This document shows, one piece after another, positions 15,537-49,618 of a stretch of DNA of 64,000 nt (positions are counted from its first letter, which is position 1; every line of letters starts with the position of its first letter). The notes below the pieces were generated by a model, which was not told the DNA's origin, ran no database searches, and worked only from the letters and a program-made list of their open reading frames with translations. Position numbers and translations under genes: made by a program. Source of the stretch: Archangium violaceum (GTDB lineage: Bacteria; Myxococcota; Myxococcia; Myxococcales; Myxococcaceae); the NCBI RefSeq assembly GCF_016859125.1, contig NZ_CP069338.1:10543501-10607500 (forward strand). Reading direction: 5' to 3'.

Positions 15537-15921
15537 CTAGTAGGCCAAGGCATCGGCGCCAGAAGTCAGCCCGAGGGGCGGAGTGCTCGCCGCTTGTTGC
15601 CAGCGAGGGGTCCAAGGGGAGTAACGCAGTCCTCTCGGGGCCTGCTCAGGCTTCACTCGCGTTGCGGCCTGCGCACTCGCTCGACCTCCTTTCGGGGCCT
15701 TCTTCTTCGGGGCTTCGGCTCAGAGGGTCACCCCTCTTCACCGCCCGATGGCTTCCGAGGTGCATCGACAATTCCTCGGGTGGGACTTCCACCCACTGGT
15801 GACGTGCACCTTTCACGGCGCACCCAAAAAAGGACCAAAGTGAACGGACGCGCCTGGACTCTCCCGGACAGATGGGCGGCCCATCTTCAGAGGGAAAACA
15901 GGGGTGGGCCTCTGGCCCCGA

Positions 15922-32406: not shown

Positions 32407-35400
32407 GTGGCAGTCCAAGAGTCGCAGTCCTGGGGCCACCGCCTGTGGCCCGCGGCGACGTTCCAGTTCGCCCTCATCGCCGGCGTGACGCAGCTGAAGA
32501 CGGCTGCCAACGCACTCGTGTTGTCGCGCTTCGAGTCGCATGCGATGCCCTACCTGTACCTGGTGGGCGCGCTGCTCGTGGCGACGCTGACGCTGCTGCC
32601 GCGCAAGGAGCCCGGAGCGGCGAGAGAGTCCCTGAGCGTGCTCACCGGCGTGAGCGGGCTGGTGGTGCTGGGGCTGGCCGCGGGCGTGTCCGTGGGCCAG
32701 AGGATTCCGGCGCTGGTGCTGTACCTCTTCGTGGATGCCTTCACCACGTTCATCTCCCTGCGCTTCTGGGGGCAGATGGCGTCGGCCTTCGACGCGCGCG
32801 AGGCCCGGCGGGCATTCACGGCGCTCAACGGCGTGGGCATGGCGGGAGGCATGCTGGGCGGCCTGCTCGTCCAGGGGCTCGCCGAGCGGCTCGGCACCGC
32901 CTCCATCATCGTGGGCGGGGCGCTGTCGCTCTACGCCGCGGCAGTGGCCTTCCACTTCCACCAGGGCGAGTCGCGGCACCCCTCGCGCACGCGCAACCTC
33001 GCGCCGTCCGTGGCGGCCTGGGAGTACCTCTCCACCAGCAGCTATGCCCGGGTGCTGGCGGCGCTGGGCGTGAGCTTCGCGGTGCTGTCCTCCTTCGTCG
33101 ACTACTTCTTCCGCCTGCGCGTGGAGAACACACTCAGCGAGGACGGGCTGGCGGCGCTCTTCGGCTCGCTCCAGCTGTGGATCGGCCTGGTATGCGTCGT
33201 CTTCCAGCTGCTGTTGGCCGAGCGGCTGCTCAAGCGGCTCGGGCTGATGCGCTACCTGGCGCTGCTGCCCGGGGCGATGGCGCCGCTGGCGGTGGCCTCG
33301 CTGGTGACGACGGACCTGTGGCCGGTGCACCTGCTGCGGCTGCTGGAGAACGCGGTGAACTATTCGCTGCTGCCGGTGGGCGTGCAGCTGCTGTACTCGG
33401 CGGTGCCGGACGAGGAGCGCGAGGCGCTGCGCGGCGCGGTGGAGGGGCTGCTGCGCAAGGGCGGGACGGTGCTGGCGGGCGTGCTGCTGATCGGCGCGGG
33501 CCGCGCGGCCAACGGCGTGTCCATGGCGCTGGCGGTGGTGGGCCTGTGCGGGTTGCTCGGCGTGCTGCTGCTGCGGCTGAGGCCGGCCTACGTGGAGGCG
33601 CTGGGCGAGCAGGTGGGCGCCTCCCCCGAGGACGAGGCGCTGGGCCGCGAGGATCGCAAGCTACTGGTGGAGGCGCTGGGCTCGAGCGCGCCGGATCGCG
33701 TGCTGCACGCGATGGAGCTGCTGACGCAGGAGGGATTGCCGCTGCGGCCCCACCTGTCCGTGCTGCTGCGCCACACGCACGAGCGGGTGCAGGAGCGGGC
33801 GGTGAGCCTGGCGTTGGAGCTCCAGGCCTCCGAGACGGCGCCGCTGCTGGAGCAGCTGGTGACGCAGGGTCCGCGCCGCGCGAGGGACAGCGCGGTGTGG
33901 GCGTTGGCGAAGCTGGCGCCGGATCGGGCGGAGGTGCTGCTGCCGCCGCTGCTCCAGAGTCCGGACATCGGGCTGCGCTGCGCGGCCATTGGCGCGCTGC
34001 TGACCACGAGGTGGCGCGCGGCGGCGCTCGTGTCCCTGGGGGCGCTGGCGGCCCGGGGCGCACAGGCGCCGGTGGCGGATCGCCGCGAGGTGGCCCGGCT
34101 GTTCGGCCGGCTGAAGGACACGAGCTACACGCCCATGCTGACGTCCTTCCTGGGCGATCCGGACAGCACGGTGCGGCGCGTGGCGGTGCGCTCCGTGGGC
34201 GAGGGCGGCTACGTGAAGCTGGCGCCCCGGTTGCTGACGTTCCTCACCTGGCGCGAGGAGCGGCGCGAGGCGCGCGAGGCCCTGGCCGCGCTGGGTGACG
34301 AGGTGACGCCACTGCTGGAGGCGACGCTCAACGACCTGGCCGCGCCGCTGCCCATGCGGCTGCAGATCCCCCGCGTGCTGCGCCACATCGGCACGCCGGC
34401 GGCGCTGCACGCCCTGCTCTTCTCCAACGTGCGCGACGATGCCCGGCTGCACTTCCGCATCGGCGCGGAGCTCTCGCGCCTGCGCGACGAGCACCCCGAG
34501 CACCCGGTGGACGTGGAGCGCGTGCGCGAGGCCCTGGGGCGGCGGCGCGACGTGTACCGCGCCCTGGTGGAGCCCTTCCGTGACCTGCGCGCGGAGCTGG
34601 GGGACCACTCGCTGCTCACGCGCATGGTGGGGGATCGGCTGGATCAGGCGCTGGAGCTGTCCTTCTTCCTGCTGGGCCTGCTGCACCCGCCCCAGGTGAT
34701 GCGGCGCGTGCACCAGCAGGTGGCGGGACAGGACGCGCGGCGGCGGGCATACGCGCTGGAGCTGCTGGAGACGCTCACGAACGAGCAGGACCGGGAGCTG
34801 GTGCGCGAGCAGGTGGAGCTCCACCACCGGGATCTGCCTCCGGGCACGCCGGGCCGGTTGGAGGCGCACCTGGCGTGGCTGTGCCGCAGCGAGGATGTGG
34901 TGCTGCGCGGTTGCGCGCGCTACGTGGCGGGCCGGATCGGCATGGACGTGCCACCGGCACAGGAGGGAGACATGAGTCAGGCGACGGTGCAGAAGCTGTT
35001 CCTCCTGGAGGAGGTGCACGTCTTCTCGCAGAACGACGTGGACGACGTGGCGGCGGTGGCGGCCATCGCCCGCGAGGCGCGCTTCCGCGCCGGCGAGCGC
35101 GTCTACAGCGAGGGAGACCCGGGAGACGCGCTCTACGTCATCGTCGAGGGCGCGGTGGACGCCATCAGCAACGGCGAGCACGTGTTGCGGATGCGGGCCA
35201 AGGAGACCTTCGGCGACGTGAGCCTGCTGGATGGCGCCCCCCGCCCCAACGACGTCGTGGCGGTGGAGGACACGCGGGTGCTCATCATCGACCGGCGCGA
35301 CTTCCTCGATCTGCTGGCGGACCGCCCGGAGCTGCTCACGGGCTTCTTCCGCGCGGTGAGCCAGCAGCTGCGCGCCGTCATCCAGGCTTCGGAGACGCGG

Positions 35401-35493
35401 CAGGCGGGGGAGCTGCTGGAGCTGGGGGAGCACCAGAAGAAGCAGCAGGAAGAGGAGCCGCCTCCGCCTCCGGAGCGGAAGGCCGCGGGCTAG
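32407..35493 (+). CDS. Npt1-like transporter fused to HEAT repeats and a cyclic-nucleotide-binding domain
   Basis: A 1028-aa protein. Residues about 10-400 form some 10-12 membrane helices resembling the ADP/ATP (Npt1/Npt2) or MFS carriers (TQLKTAANALVLSRFES; FTALNGVGMAGGMLGGLL). Residues about 415-800 are HEAT-like helical repeats (DSAVWALAKLAPDRAEVLL; TVRRVAVRSVGEGGYVKLA). Residues about 855-1005 are a cNMP-binding domain with RVYSEGDPGDALYVIVEG and the phosphate-cassette-like FGDVSLLDGAPRPNDVVA; the usual Arg of the cassette aligns with Pro-Arg-Pro here. The GTG at 32407 is the start. It probably couples membrane transport to a nucleotide signal, though the transported molecule is unknown. 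The 3' end overlaps the convergent gene by 116 bp. Confidence 0.88.
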   Translation: MAVQESQSWGHRLWPAATFQFALIAGVTQLKTAANALVLSRFESHAMPYLYLVGALLVATLTLLPRKEPGAARESLSVLTGVSGLVVLGLAAGVSVGQRIPALVLYLFVDAFTTFISLRFWGQMASAFDAREARRAFTALNGVGMAGGMLGGLLVQGLAERLGTASIIVGGALSLYAAAVAFHFHQGESRHPSRTRNLAPSVAAWEYLSTSSYARVLAALGVSFAVLSSFVDYFFRLRVENTLSEDGLAALFGSLQLWIGLVCVVFQLLLAERLLKRLGLMRYLALLPGAMAPLAVASLVTTDLWPVHLLRLLENAVNYSLLPVGVQLLYSAVPDEEREALRGAVEGLLRKGGTVLAGVLLIGAGRAANGVSMALAVVGLCGLLGVLLLRLRPAYVEALGEQVGASPEDEALGREDRKLLVEALGSSAPDRVLHAMELLTQEGLPLRPHLSVLLRHTHERVQERAVSLALELQASETAPLLEQLVTQGPRRARDSAVWALAKLAPDRAEVLLPPLLQSPDIGLRCAAIGALLTTRWRAAALVSLGALAARGAQAPVADRREVARLFGRLKDTSYTPMLTSFLGDPDSTVRRVAVRSVGEGGYVKLAPRLLTFLTWREERREAREALAALGDEVTPLLEATLNDLAAPLPMRLQIPRVLRHIGTPAALHALLFSNVRDDARLHFRIGAELSRLRDEHPEHPVDVERVREALGRRRDVYRALVEPFRDLRAELGDHSLLTRMVGDRLDQALELSFFLLGLLHPPQVMRRVHQQVAGQDARRRAYALELLETLTNEQDRELVREQVELHHRDLPPGTPGRLEAHLAWLCRSEDVVLRGCARYVAGRIGMDVPPAQEGDMSQATVQKLFLLEEVHVFSQNDVDDVAAVAAIAREARFRAGERVYSEGDPGDALYVIVEGAVDAISNGEHVLRMRAKETFGDVSLLDGAPRPNDVVAVEDTRVLIIDRRDFLDLLADRPELLTGFFRAVSQQLRAVIQASETRQAGELLELGEHQKKQQEEEPPPPPERKAAG

Positions 35494-36727
35494 CCGTTCC
35501 CGCCTCCAGGCCGGCCCCGCCCGCCACGAGCAGGTGGCCGGCGGCCACGGGGATGAAGGGACGCAGGAAGCACTTCACCAGCGGAAGCATCGCCACCGCC
35601 CGCACCACCGCGAGCCCGCCCAGGCTCCAGGGCTGCCGCTCCACGCTGACGATCGGGGAGAACACCGGGCGGGTGAAGGTCGTCCACACCGAGCCGTAGG
35701 CGCCCATCATCGAGCGCACGGGCGCGACGCTCGACGCGACGCGCGAGGCGGTGAGCCGCTTCCATCCGCGCAGGAACCAGGGCTCTCCGGCCGCGGACTC
35801 GTTCCAGGCCAGGGCGCTCTTGCCCGCGGTGAAGACCACGAACCACCAGGCGCCCCACACGGACAGCAGCACCGTCAGGAGCCCGTCGTGTCCGGGAAGG
35901 AACCTCGTGGTGAACCACAGCAGGGGCGCCCCGGCGGCGAACACCACGAAGGCCCGCCAGCGGCGCTTCAGCTTGTTGCGCATCCACGGCAGGTTGAGCC
36001 GGACCCTGGGGGTGAGCGGCTCGTCCTCCGGCGCGAGCCCGGTGCGCAGGCTCGCCTCGCGCGAGAGCACCGTGTGGTAGTCGCGCGACAGGGCGATGAC
36101 GATCCACTGGGCGATGTGCAGCGAGGACAGGAGCGCCGCCCAGTACACGAACCGGTGGACGGTGCGTTTGCGCGGGCCTTCGGCCTTCTTCGCCTCATCC
36201 AGGGCCTCCTGCACGGCGACCCGCACCGTCTCCTGGTCCGCTCCCGCCTTCACGGCGAGCGCCGCCACGCCCCGCGCCACCTGTTCGATCTCCTGCTGCT
36301 GCTCCACCTGATGCTGGATGTCCTTCGCCCGTTCCGCCTCCTGGCGGACCTCCGCCACCTCTTCGGACCACTCCTCGGGTCCGACGGACTCCACGACCTC
36401 CTCGCCCGGGCCCGTGAACACCACCCCCAGCGCCACGACGACGGCCACCTGGATCAGGCTGACCTTCAGGTAGCGCCGTCGGGTCTCCTTGTCCGCCAGC
36501 AGGACACGCGCCAGGTGGAACGGCAGGCACAGACCGTGGACGAACTGTCCCAGCCTGTTCACTGGCAACGGAACACTTCGTTGGTGGAAATGGTCCGCGC
36601 CCCGACGCACGTCCGCCCACACCTGCCACAACCTCTGCTCGTAAGCGGAGGCCGGCACGGGCTCATGACTCCCCCCACCCTGCCCCCTGCTCGGAGGAGG
36701 TAGGACGTCCTTCTGGTGGCTGTGCAC
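35378..36727 (-). CDS. Hypothetical multispanning membrane protein
   Basis: A 449-aa protein. A helix at about 95-115 (VSLIQVAVVVALGVVFTGPG) is followed by an acidic coiled coil (SEEVAEVRQEAERAKDIQHQ) rich in Glu and Gln. More helices follow around FVYWAALLSSLHIAQWIVIAL, FVVFAAGAPLLWFTTRF and LLTVLLSVWGAWWFVVF, and the tail is Ala/Pro-rich (APPAPAAPPPAASPKPG). No family was recognised. Its last 39 codons lie antisense to the end of the transporter gene; the low-complexity tail could be an extension tolerated by chance. The start at 36727 is the first ATG; later starts are possible. Confidence 0.75.
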   Translation of the reverse strand: MHSHQKDVLPPPSRGQGGGSHEPVPASAYEQRLWQVWADVRRGADHFHQRSVPLPVNRLGQFVHGLCLPFHLARVLLADKETRRRYLKVSLIQVAVVVALGVVFTGPGEEVVESVGPEEWSEEVAEVRQEAERAKDIQHQVEQQQEIEQVARGVAALAVKAGADQETVRVAVQEALDEAKKAEGPRKRTVHRFVYWAALLSSLHIAQWIVIALSRDYHTVLSREASLRTGLAPEDEPLTPRVRLNLPWMRNKLKRRWRAFVVFAAGAPLLWFTTRFLPGHDGLLTVLLSVWGAWWFVVFTAGKSALAWNESAAGEPWFLRGWKRLTASRVASSVAPVRSMMGAYGSVWTTFTRPVFSPIVSVERQPWSLGGLAVVRAVAMLPLVKCFLRPFIPVAAGHLLVAGGAGLEAGTASPRPSAPEAEAAPLPAASSGAPPAPAAPPPAASPKPG

Positions 36728-36839
36728 GGCATGACGCTAACACGAGGGAGCGAGCGAGGCGGGAGGCCCCCTTTTTGACGACCCCGGGGGGGAGGTGTGC
36801 TATTCGCGCAGACGTATCGCCAACAAAGTCGGAGCCCTC

Positions 36840-38450
36840 ATGCATCAAGAGTCCGAGTCCAGGCCGGCGACGGGTGGGAAGACCCCGTGGCGCCGTGCTT
36901 CCGGTGTGGTGGCCTTCGCCCTCCTGGGCACGCTCACCGGCTGCGACAAGAATGCCTCCCAGGAGAACAAGCCCGCCGCGACGGCCCAGCCGGCGCAGGC
37001 CCCCGCGCCCAAGCCCGCCGCGCCCAAGCCGACCACGGTGACGGTGCTCATCACCGGTAGCGCCAACGGTCAGCTGCTGCCCACCACCCCCGAGGGTGGG
37101 TCGCCGACGATCGGCGCCGCCGAGCTGCTCGGCTGGTGGACGGCCAAGGAGAAGCACTGTGCCGGCCAGGTGAAGGACGGCCAGGCCGCCTGTCAGGACG
37201 CCACCACGCTGGCGCTGACCATCGGCGATGCCTGGAACGGCCCGGCCATCTCCTCCTTCTTCTACGGCGAGCCCACCGCCGCGGTGATGGGCCGCATGGG
37301 CTTCGCCGCGTCCGCCCTGGGCAACCACGAGCTGGACTATGGGCTGGAGCAGTTCCAGAAGAACCACCAGGCGGGTGGCTTCCCCTTCCTGGCCGCCAAC
37401 CTGAAGGTGAAGGACGCGGCGCTGGCCAAGGGCTGGGAGCTGCCGGGCTTCAAGGTGTTCGAGCGCCAGGGCCTGAAGGTGGGCGTGGTGGGCCTGACGT
37501 CGCCCAAGACGGTGACCACGGCGATGGCCGGACGCGCCGAGGGCCTGGAGGTGGTTCCCGACGAGCAGGCCCTGACGAGCGCGGTGGGCGAGGCCCAGAA
37601 GGCCGGGGCGGACACCGTGGTGGTGCTCGCGGACGAGTGCCCGCGCGATCTGCAGCCGATCGTGGGCAAGCACCCCGAGTGGAAGGTGTCGGTGGTGGCG
37701 GGTGGCCGCTGCGCGGAGCCGGTGAACACGAAGGAGGGCAACACCACCTACGTGTCGCTGGGCCGGGGCTTCGACAAGTACCTGCGCACCGCCTACACCT
37801 ACGACGCCTCGAAGCCCGAGGGTGAGCAGGTGACGGCCGTGGAGACGTCGCTGGTGGACGTGACGAGCGGCGAGGGCGCTCCGGCTCCGGACGCCGAGCT
37901 GGCCAGGCAGATCGCCGACTACAAGACCCGGCTGGACACGGCCCTGGGCGAGCAGATCGGCTTCACGAAGAAGGCCTTCGAGAAGGACTCGAAGCAGCTG
38001 GGTGCCTGGGTGACGCGCGCCATCCAGGCGCAGCTGAACACGGACGCGGTGGTGCTCAACCGCAAGGGCTTCCGCGAGGGCCTGCCGGCGGGCCAGGTCA
38101 CCAAGGGCTCCGTGTACTCGGTGATGCCGTTCGAGAACTCGCTGATGGTGGTCGAGGTGAAGGGCGAGGATCTGGCGCGCCAGCTGGCCAACCCGGAGGC
38201 GGTGTTCTCGGGCTTCACGGCGGCCGGCAAGGGCAGGTTCAAGGACGCCAAGGGCAAGCCGCTGGATCCGAAGAAGGAGTACAAGGTCGCGACGGTCGAA
38301 TACCTCTACTTCGGGGGTGACGGCTTCGAGTTCGAGAAGCTGGATCCGGAGCCGGGCGAGACGGGCATGTCGTGGCAGACGCCCGTGATCGACTGGACGA
38401 AGGAGCAGAGCACGACCGAGGCGAAGCCGCTGGACAAGGTGATCAAGTAG
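36840..38450 (+). CDS. 5'-nucleotidase-like lipoprotein with degenerate active site
   Basis: A 536-aa lipoprotein (signal VVAFALLGTLTGC, then an Ala/Pro linker). It has the UshA/5'-nucleotidase layout: metallophosphatase domain to about residue 320, then the C-terminal substrate-binding domain (VVLNRKGFREGLPAGQVTKG; VYSVMPFENSLMVVEVKG). GNHELDYG and a GD motif (TIGDAWNGP) remain. The first ligand motif DxH is replaced in LITGSANGQLL, the usual histidine after the third strand is replaced (VVLADECP), and GHxH is replaced by GGRCAEP. It therefore probably binds rather than hydrolyses nucleotides or related ligands. The ATG at 36840 has GGAG. Monocistronic, followed by palindrome copy B. Confidence 0.85.
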   Translation: MHQESESRPATGGKTPWRRASGVVAFALLGTLTGCDKNASQENKPAATAQPAQAPAPKPAAPKPTTVTVLITGSANGQLLPTTPEGGSPTIGAAELLGWWTAKEKHCAGQVKDGQAACQDATTLALTIGDAWNGPAISSFFYGEPTAAVMGRMGFAASALGNHELDYGLEQFQKNHQAGGFPFLAANLKVKDAALAKGWELPGFKVFERQGLKVGVVGLTSPKTVTTAMAGRAEGLEVVPDEQALTSAVGEAQKAGADTVVVLADECPRDLQPIVGKHPEWKVSVVAGGRCAEPVNTKEGNTTYVSLGRGFDKYLRTAYTYDASKPEGEQVTAVETSLVDVTSGEGAPAPDAELARQIADYKTRLDTALGEQIGFTKKAFEKDSKQLGAWVTRAIQAQLNTDAVVLNRKGFREGLPAGQVTKGSVYSVMPFENSLMVVEVKGEDLARQLANPEAVFSGFTAAGKGRFKDAKGKPLDPKKEYKVATVEYLYFGGDGFEFEKLDPEPGETGMSWQTPVIDWTKEQSTTEAKPLDKVIK

Positions 38451-48370: not shown

Positions 48371-49618
48371 TCAGCGTCCGAGCCGCTCCAGCGCCTTCTG
48401 CGCCGCCTTGCGCGAATTGCATCCGAGCTGGAAGAGGCCCCCGGATTCCTCGCCCGGTCCACCCTCCTCGGCCAGATCCTCCAGCGCGCCGCGCGCGGAC
48501 ACCCTCTTGAGATCGCCCAGCGCGTCCGCGGCATTGGCGCGCACACGGCACTCCGGGTGCTTCAACAGCTCCGCGAGCCGGTCCCCGGCGTCGTCGTTGC
48601 CGGCCTTCACCGCGGAACGGTAGAGCTCCACCGCCCGGTTGGGGGCGTCCAGCGCCTCGTCCAGCCGCCCCAGCAGCCAGGCCCGCTTGCCCGGGGAGTC
48701 CTTCTCCACGGAGATGAGATTCCGGGCGCGCTCCGCCAGCTTGAGCTTCTCGCTGGTGCTGGTGGCCTTCGCCACCTCCTTGATGGCGGCCTCGGCGGGA
48801 CTGTCGCGCAGCACGACGAAGCCCACCCCGAGCAGCAACAGCACCAGCGCGCCACCGCCCACCGCCACCTTCCTCGAGGTGGGCGACAGGCGCTGATGGG
48901 TCTTCACCGCCAGGATGGCCGTGCGGGTGCGCGCCACGATCTGCCCGCCGACGGCGGCCGCGGTGGCCGCCAGGTCCGTCCCCGGCGTGAGCTGGAGCGA
49001 GGGAACGCGCGAGAGCGCCAGGTTCCCGAAGGGCGGCTGCTCGTTCTCGAGCGGCGCCCCGGCCCCGGACGACACGTGCACCACGGAGGGCGTCTCCACG
49101 CGGTAGGGCGCGCGGGGCACGCGGAAGACGCGGATCTTCCCGGGGATGCCCTTGAGCTCGAAGGCGCCCACTTCCAGCGAGGGCACTTCCGCCTTGTTCA
49201 TGGCCAGGTAGACGGCCTCGGTGAAGAAGACCTCGCCGGCCTCGGCGATGGACTCCACGCGCGAGGCGATGTTGACGGGCTCGCCGAAGACGTCGTTGGA
49301 CTCCAGCCGCACCTCGCCCACGTTGATGGCCACGCGTACGTCCAGCCGCTCGGCATCCGAGGCGCCGCGGTTGTAGCTCCAGAGCCGGTCCTGGATGGCC
49401 ATGCCGCTGAGGACGGCCTGGGTGGGCGACTCGAAGGTCACGAGGAAGGCGTCGCCGATGGACTTGATGATGCGTCCGCCGAAGGCCTTGAAGACCGGGG
49501 CGAGGAGATCATGGTGCACCTTGAGCAGGCGCTGGTTCTCCTCGAGGGTTTGCCGGCTGGTGCGCTCGGTGAAGCCCTTGATGTCGGTGAACACAATGGC
49601 GAGGTTGGCGGTCTTCAA
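48371..49618 (-). CDS. Class III nucleotide cyclase with membrane helix and HEAT tail
   Basis: A 415-aa protein. An N-terminal adenylate/guanylate cyclase domain (about 1-175) shows the metal site VFTDIKGFT, IIKSIGDAFLVTFE with Lys and Asp, and the transition-state Asn/Arg in EPVNIASRVES, so it looks active. A linker leads to one helix (VAVGGGALVLLLLGVGFVVL) and a periplasmic or membrane-proximal TPR/HEAT-like tail (ECRVRANAADALGDLKRVSA). The only start in the frame is the TTG at 49618, immediately before the domain, without a clear ribosome-binding site. It may supply cAMP or cGMP for effectors such as the cNMP-binding transporter at 32407-35493 (inference). Confidence 0.87.
   Translation of the reverse strand: MKTANLAIVFTDIKGFTERTSRQTLEENQRLLKVHHDLLAPVFKAFGGRIIKSIGDAFLVTFESPTQAVLSGMAIQDRLWSYNRGASDAERLDVRVAINVGEVRLESNDVFGEPVNIASRVESIAEAGEVFFTEAVYLAMNKAEVPSLEVGAFELKGIPGKIRVFRVPRAPYRVETPSVVHVSSGAGAPLENEQPPFGNLALSRVPSLQLTPGTDLAATAAAVGGQIVARTRTAILAVKTHQRLSPTSRKVAVGGGALVLLLLGVGFVVLRDSPAEAAIKEVAKATSTSEKLKLAERARNLISVEKDSPGKRAWLLGRLDEALDAPNRAVELYRSAVKAGNDDAGDRLAELLKHPECRVRANAADALGDLKRVSARGALEDLAEEGGPGEESGGLFQLGCNSRKAAQKALERLGR

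Follow-up and report, generated by a model that had tools for sequence, protein, structure and literature searches.

An NTT-like carrier fused to HEAT repeats and a cyclic-nucleotide-binding domain in Archangium violaceum: a candidate cyclic-nucleotide-modulated transporter lacking the nucleotide-binding lysines

Archangium violaceum encodes a membrane carrier that is joined, in a single polypeptide, to a HEAT-repeat solenoid and a C-terminal cyclic-nucleotide-binding domain (cNBD). The gene lies on the forward strand at positions 32407–35493 of the window, i.e., the whole stretch of 64,000 nucleotides analyzed here, in a genome of 12.68 Mb assembled as one contig. Our best model, which we consider about as probable as its alternatives combined, is a carrier that a cyclic nucleotide modulates and whose cargo is some anion but not ATP/ADP. 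In general terms, a carrier from the NTT branch of the MFS fold would sit in the inner membrane, with its HEAT arm and its cNBD both in the cytoplasm, a placement suggested by the 12 transmembrane (TM) helices and the MFS topology. A cyclic nucleotide would dock on G936/D937/S939/R946, and the HEAT arm would transmit the ligand-driven movement to the membrane part, changing the transport rate. The cargo would probably be an anionic metabolite rather than ATP exchanged against ADP.

The reading frame is uninterrupted from a GTG start to the stop (1028 codons, 1028 residues). The alignment with congener proteins, 89% identical, starts at residue 1 and extends into the C-terminal region, i.e., over essentially the full length, and the named relatives at 88% identity are Archangium species. 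The full-length AlphaFold2 model (22 orthologues in the alignment; pLDDT 83, pTM 0.74) has 12 long membrane helices at residues 4–403 (32416–33615, forward strand), a helical solenoid at 414–843, and a cNBD at 858–996 (34978–35394, forward strand). Pfam HEAT_2 matches four stretches (1.2e-12) of the solenoid, which together with a helical linker spans residues 414–857 (33646–34977, forward strand), and cNMP_binding matches residues 892–972 (2.5e-19). The ~400 residues of HEAT-like helices and the C-terminal cNMP domain proposed in the initial annotation are thus both borne out, and the three parts follow one another in the order of NTT-HEAT-cNBD fusions. Since this fused layout is found in dozens of genomes, an assembly or frameshift artefact was ruled out. 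By the Nei-Gojobori method, comparison with five relatives gave dN/dS values of 0.18–0.35 in each of the three domains and 0.4–1.1 in the disordered C-terminal tail; the carrier, HEAT, and cNBD parts are all under purifying selection.

Structure comparison identifies the membrane part as a 12-TM NTT fold nearest to the solved NTTs. Using VIA-align, AtNTT1 (9j3m) ranked first (Z 37.3, rmsd 2.7, 398 residues aligned), followed by LacY as the next family (Z 30.7) and other MFS carriers at ~28 or less. A plain MFS carrier, the outcome that the initial annotation had named as fatal to its nucleotide-carrier-like membrane part, was rejected because NTTs top the comparison. Pfam profiles for MFS_1 and TLC (ATP/ADP transporter, PF03219) both match this region, the latter weakly, with 18.7 bits against a curated cut-off of 21; the orthologue at locus L028 scores 23.4 bits, above the cut-off, and two relatives of the split form described below reach 45–50. 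Among PDB entries, an NTT-domain profile of split relatives matched AtNTT1 (6.8e-19) and Chlamydia pneumoniae NTT1 (1.4e-16) and no others. Homology between fused and split carriers is clear (hhalign E 7.6e-69).

In AtNTT1, four charged residues, i.e., K155, E245, E385, and K527, have been identified as essential (PMC10654386); K155 probably serves ADP binding, K527 ATP binding, and E245 translocation (PMC3306366). A profile alignment maps them onto A34 (K31 to A34, 32497–32508), D110 (32734–32736), D232 (33100–33102), and T354 (K351 to T354, 33457–33468), respectively, all on the forward strand. The placements of A34 and D232 are backed by conserved neighboring motifs; that of T354 is less certain, as the helix could slip, and K351 lies one turn off. 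We compared 64 non-redundant fused proteins (61 of class A and three remote relatives), almost wholly from Myxococcota, with the cyanobacterial, Bacilli, and oomycete fusions left out, and found no Lys at the K155 or K527 position in any of them. Both acids are retained in 64/64, as Asp or Glu at the E245 position and as Asp throughout at the E385 position. The K31 position is Lys in 61/61 and the K351 position in 60/61 class A proteins, and both are Arg in the three remote relatives. Because the K155 and K527 equivalents are absent from all 64 relatives, classical ATP/ADP exchange is unlikely, judging from sequence, and the missing lysines are a concrete reason against annotating such proteins as ATP/ADP translocases. 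The loss of both essential lysines also weakens the link to transport of the Npt1/Npt2 type, the carriers named for comparison in the initial annotation. It is this loss of lysines, together with the retention of the two acids and of K31, R41, R236, R342, and K351, that points our best model to an anionic cargo other than ATP/ADP. The disappearance of both nucleotide-binding lysines of AtNTT1 (PMC3306366) from all relatives checked would also suit a transceptor or pseudo-transporter whose NTT part detects a ligand outside the cytoplasm but does not turn it over, the HEAT and cNBD parts relaying the signal. However, both transport-linked acids and the full set of 12 helices are retained under purifying selection, and we regard a transceptor as improbable.

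Downstream of the transporter, the window holds a lipoprotein-like 5′-nucleotidase homologue (36795–38450, forward strand) that is a conserved neighbor of the transporter in core Myxococcaceae; this synteny is seen only in the closer Myxococcaceae/Archangiaceae relatives, at about 68% identity and up. By inspection, its N-terminal metal motifs look lost, with TGSANG in place of TNDxHG and GGRCAE in place of GGHxH, although GNHE is kept, and the enzyme may be catalytically dead. An operon of transporter and 5′-nucleotidase was rejected, given that a gene on the opposite strand lies in between. The reverse-strand gene at 35378–36727 encodes a protein of 449 residues with no Pfam match, is convergent with the transporter and overlaps its 3′ end, and is syntenic in core Myxococcaceae. 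The nucleotidase homologue and the NTT fold and profile matches would fit a classical exchanger of ATP/ADP (or NTP/NDP), acting, e.g., on nucleotides from lysed prey and switched by cAMP along the lines proposed in PMC5381601. Set against the absent lysines in 64/64 proteins and the apparent lack of metal-binding motifs in the neighboring homologue, we consider such an exchanger very unlikely. No neighbor gene points to a substrate of the carrier. Some 13 kb from the transporter, a reverse-strand gene (48371–49618) combines a class III adenylate/guanylate cyclase domain with a membrane segment and HEAT-like repeats. Elsewhere in the window, a reverse-strand stretch (15657–15798) matches the Rfam group II intron D1D4-4 (94.7 bits), and the tested ORFs near it gave no reverse transcriptase or other Pfam match.

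The phosphate-binding cassette of the cNBD reads G936-D937-V-S-L-L-D-G-A-P-R946-P-N-D949 (35212–35253, forward strand). Compared with the cassettes of PKG/PKA, in which the residue roles are established (PMC3080414), the phosphate-binding backbone positions, the ribose acid, and the Arg are all in canonical register. The acid for the ribose 2′-OH is D937, an Asp where Glu is usual, as in many close relatives, and the phosphate Arg is R946; in the closest group (Archangium/Myxococcus), Asp/Glu and Arg are present in 21/21 proteins. The initial annotation had described this Arg as lying in an odd context, a remark that does not hold for the Arg itself, which sits exactly at its canonical position, and does hold for the three residues behind it, P947-N948-D949, against a canonical Ala/Ser/Thr-Ala-Thr. 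Fused cNBDs carry Pro-Thr/Asn-Asp directly after the cassette Arg. The cGMP-selecting Thr is absent, its position being Pro (Pro947) in 21/21 close relatives, and cAMP is therefore a likelier ligand than cGMP. The full-length AlphaFold2 model showed low confidence at the cassette, and a disordered loop with a lost P-helix was considered and rejected: a model of the domain alone (59 sequences) is of high confidence and shows a beta-roll with the P-helix predicted at 937–942. The top structural matches of this model, tied in Z with other cNBDs, are Clr, GlxR, and MtbCRP in their cAMP-bound state (Z 19–20; 20.0 for Clr-cAMP).

The main rival to our best model is a cNBD without a ligand. In this alternative, the fused domain has lost cyclic-nucleotide binding and is kept as a cap with a structural or dimerization role, the carrier being constitutive or gated by another partner. 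Its cassette departs from the canonical one of 16 stand-alone cNBDs, and most of the distant fused relatives have Gln, Ser, Gly, or His in place of the Glu; six proteins, all from a single family, carry His instead of the Arg. Along the same lines, the Pro and acid after the Arg and the Asp for Glu could mean weaker or changed ligand binding, which counts against our best model. By contrast, the Asp/Glu and Arg of all 21 Archangium/Myxococcus proteins, the predicted P-helix, and a dN/dS that constrains the cNBD as much as the carrier are not what a cap would suggest, and we rate it a possible but clearly less probable explanation than cyclic-nucleotide modulation. In favor of the latter, the same genome also has 20 or more matches to class III cyclase domains.

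Fused orthologues are spread across Myxococcota. Matches at E 1e-15 or better occur in 159/193 genomes of this phylum, a count that includes some cNBD-only or split-form matches. Many genomes have a second carrier of ~960 residues that lacks a cNBD of its own; in this split form, a stand-alone cNBD gene of ~137 codons lies near the carrier, in several cases 11–50 nt downstream and in others some kilobases off. The stand-alone domains have a canonical cassette, with Gly-Glu and Arg in 16/16 inspected. Because the split form sets a stand-alone cNBD gene beside the carrier, an arrangement also reported in PMC5381601, gating by a cyclic nucleotide gains circumstantial support, and we consider it plausible. 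In the window's own genome, only the fused form was matched with the transporter query; a stand-alone NTT/MFS-like carrier of 428 residues (locus L007, 1192–2478), 24% identical to the membrane part, is also present there. Two loci of split type (L052 and L056) hold ORFs of 1122 and 1163 residues, respectively, whose C-terminal ends match the cNBD, and may represent split forms that fused again independently. Another locus (L074) comes from a record under the name Comamonas sp. KCTC 72670, but its copy of the gene is of myxobacterial type (69% identical) and falls among the Myxococcus rows of the cNBD tree; this assembly is probably mislabelled or contaminated.

In the phylogenetic tree of the NTT domain, fused class A is monophyletic (SH-aLRT 97); its grouping with the split NTT-HEAT class is less certain (support 60, with a root made of two NTTs only). 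The fused and stand-alone domains form two sister groups in the cNBD tree, with a support of 87 on few columns, and join each other before the other cNBDs of the genome. A different reading of the fused Myxococcota clade is that its carrier was repurposed from nucleotide exchange, to another anion or to a sensor, and its cNBD shifted off cAMP/cGMP, with the canonical split version alongside in many of the same genomes; we hold this to be rather unlikely.

The layout itself is not new. Major, Embley, and Williams (2017) described NTT-HEAT and NTT-HEAT-cNBD fusions as well as a neighboring cNBD gene, traced the NTT-HEAT fusion to one origin, and put forward an adjustment of ATP uptake by cAMP (PMC5381601). 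The protein described here belongs to their NTT-HEAT-cNBD layout, in which the three parts are arranged identically, and their tree includes deltaproteobacterial members. Neither the systematic loss of both lysines nor the cassette divergence that, in Myxococcota, marks the fused but not the split cNBDs was found in the accessible text of that paper. For functional work on NTT-HEAT proteins, a literature search that left most subscription journals uncovered gave only PMC5381601 and one diatom paper using the term.

Compared to the solved NTTs, the plastid and chlamydial ATP/ADP translocators AtNTT1 (9j3j/l/m) and C. pneumoniae NTT1 (9j3n/o), the protein is alike in the fold of its membrane part, best matched by AtNTT1, and in both acids, but it is only ~11–16% identical in structural alignments and is without the K155 and K527 equivalents. 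Unlike the protein, classical NTTs have neither HEAT repeats nor a cNBD.

The sperm Na+/H+ exchanger SLC9C1 has a voltage-sensing domain where our protein has HEAT repeats. The two share a similar plan, a carrier with a C-terminal cNBD (8xq8 and others), although their carrier folds are unrelated. Classification as an SLC9C1-type protein was rejected, since the Foldseek pairing is cross-domain (TM-score ~0.12), with no whole-chain homology. If the cNBD does control the carrier, the protein would join a small number of secondary transporters in bacteria that a cyclic nucleotide switches directly.

A cNBD can acquire a different ligand when its cassette changes, as in the trypanosomatid PKA regulatory subunits, which bind nucleosides (PMC10959531). 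These subunits have lost the Arg and carry Glu in place of Ala202, whereas our protein keeps the Arg and has Ser939 at the Ala position. Lastly, the split NTT-HEAT carriers of Myxococcota (loci L038–L057) have homologous carrier and HEAT parts and a neighboring cNBD, but they are just 24–28% identical to the fused protein, rely on a separate gene for a canonical cNBD, and have Arg, not Lys, at the K155 position. Together, the fused and split forms make cyclic-nucleotide control testable with small soluble domains.
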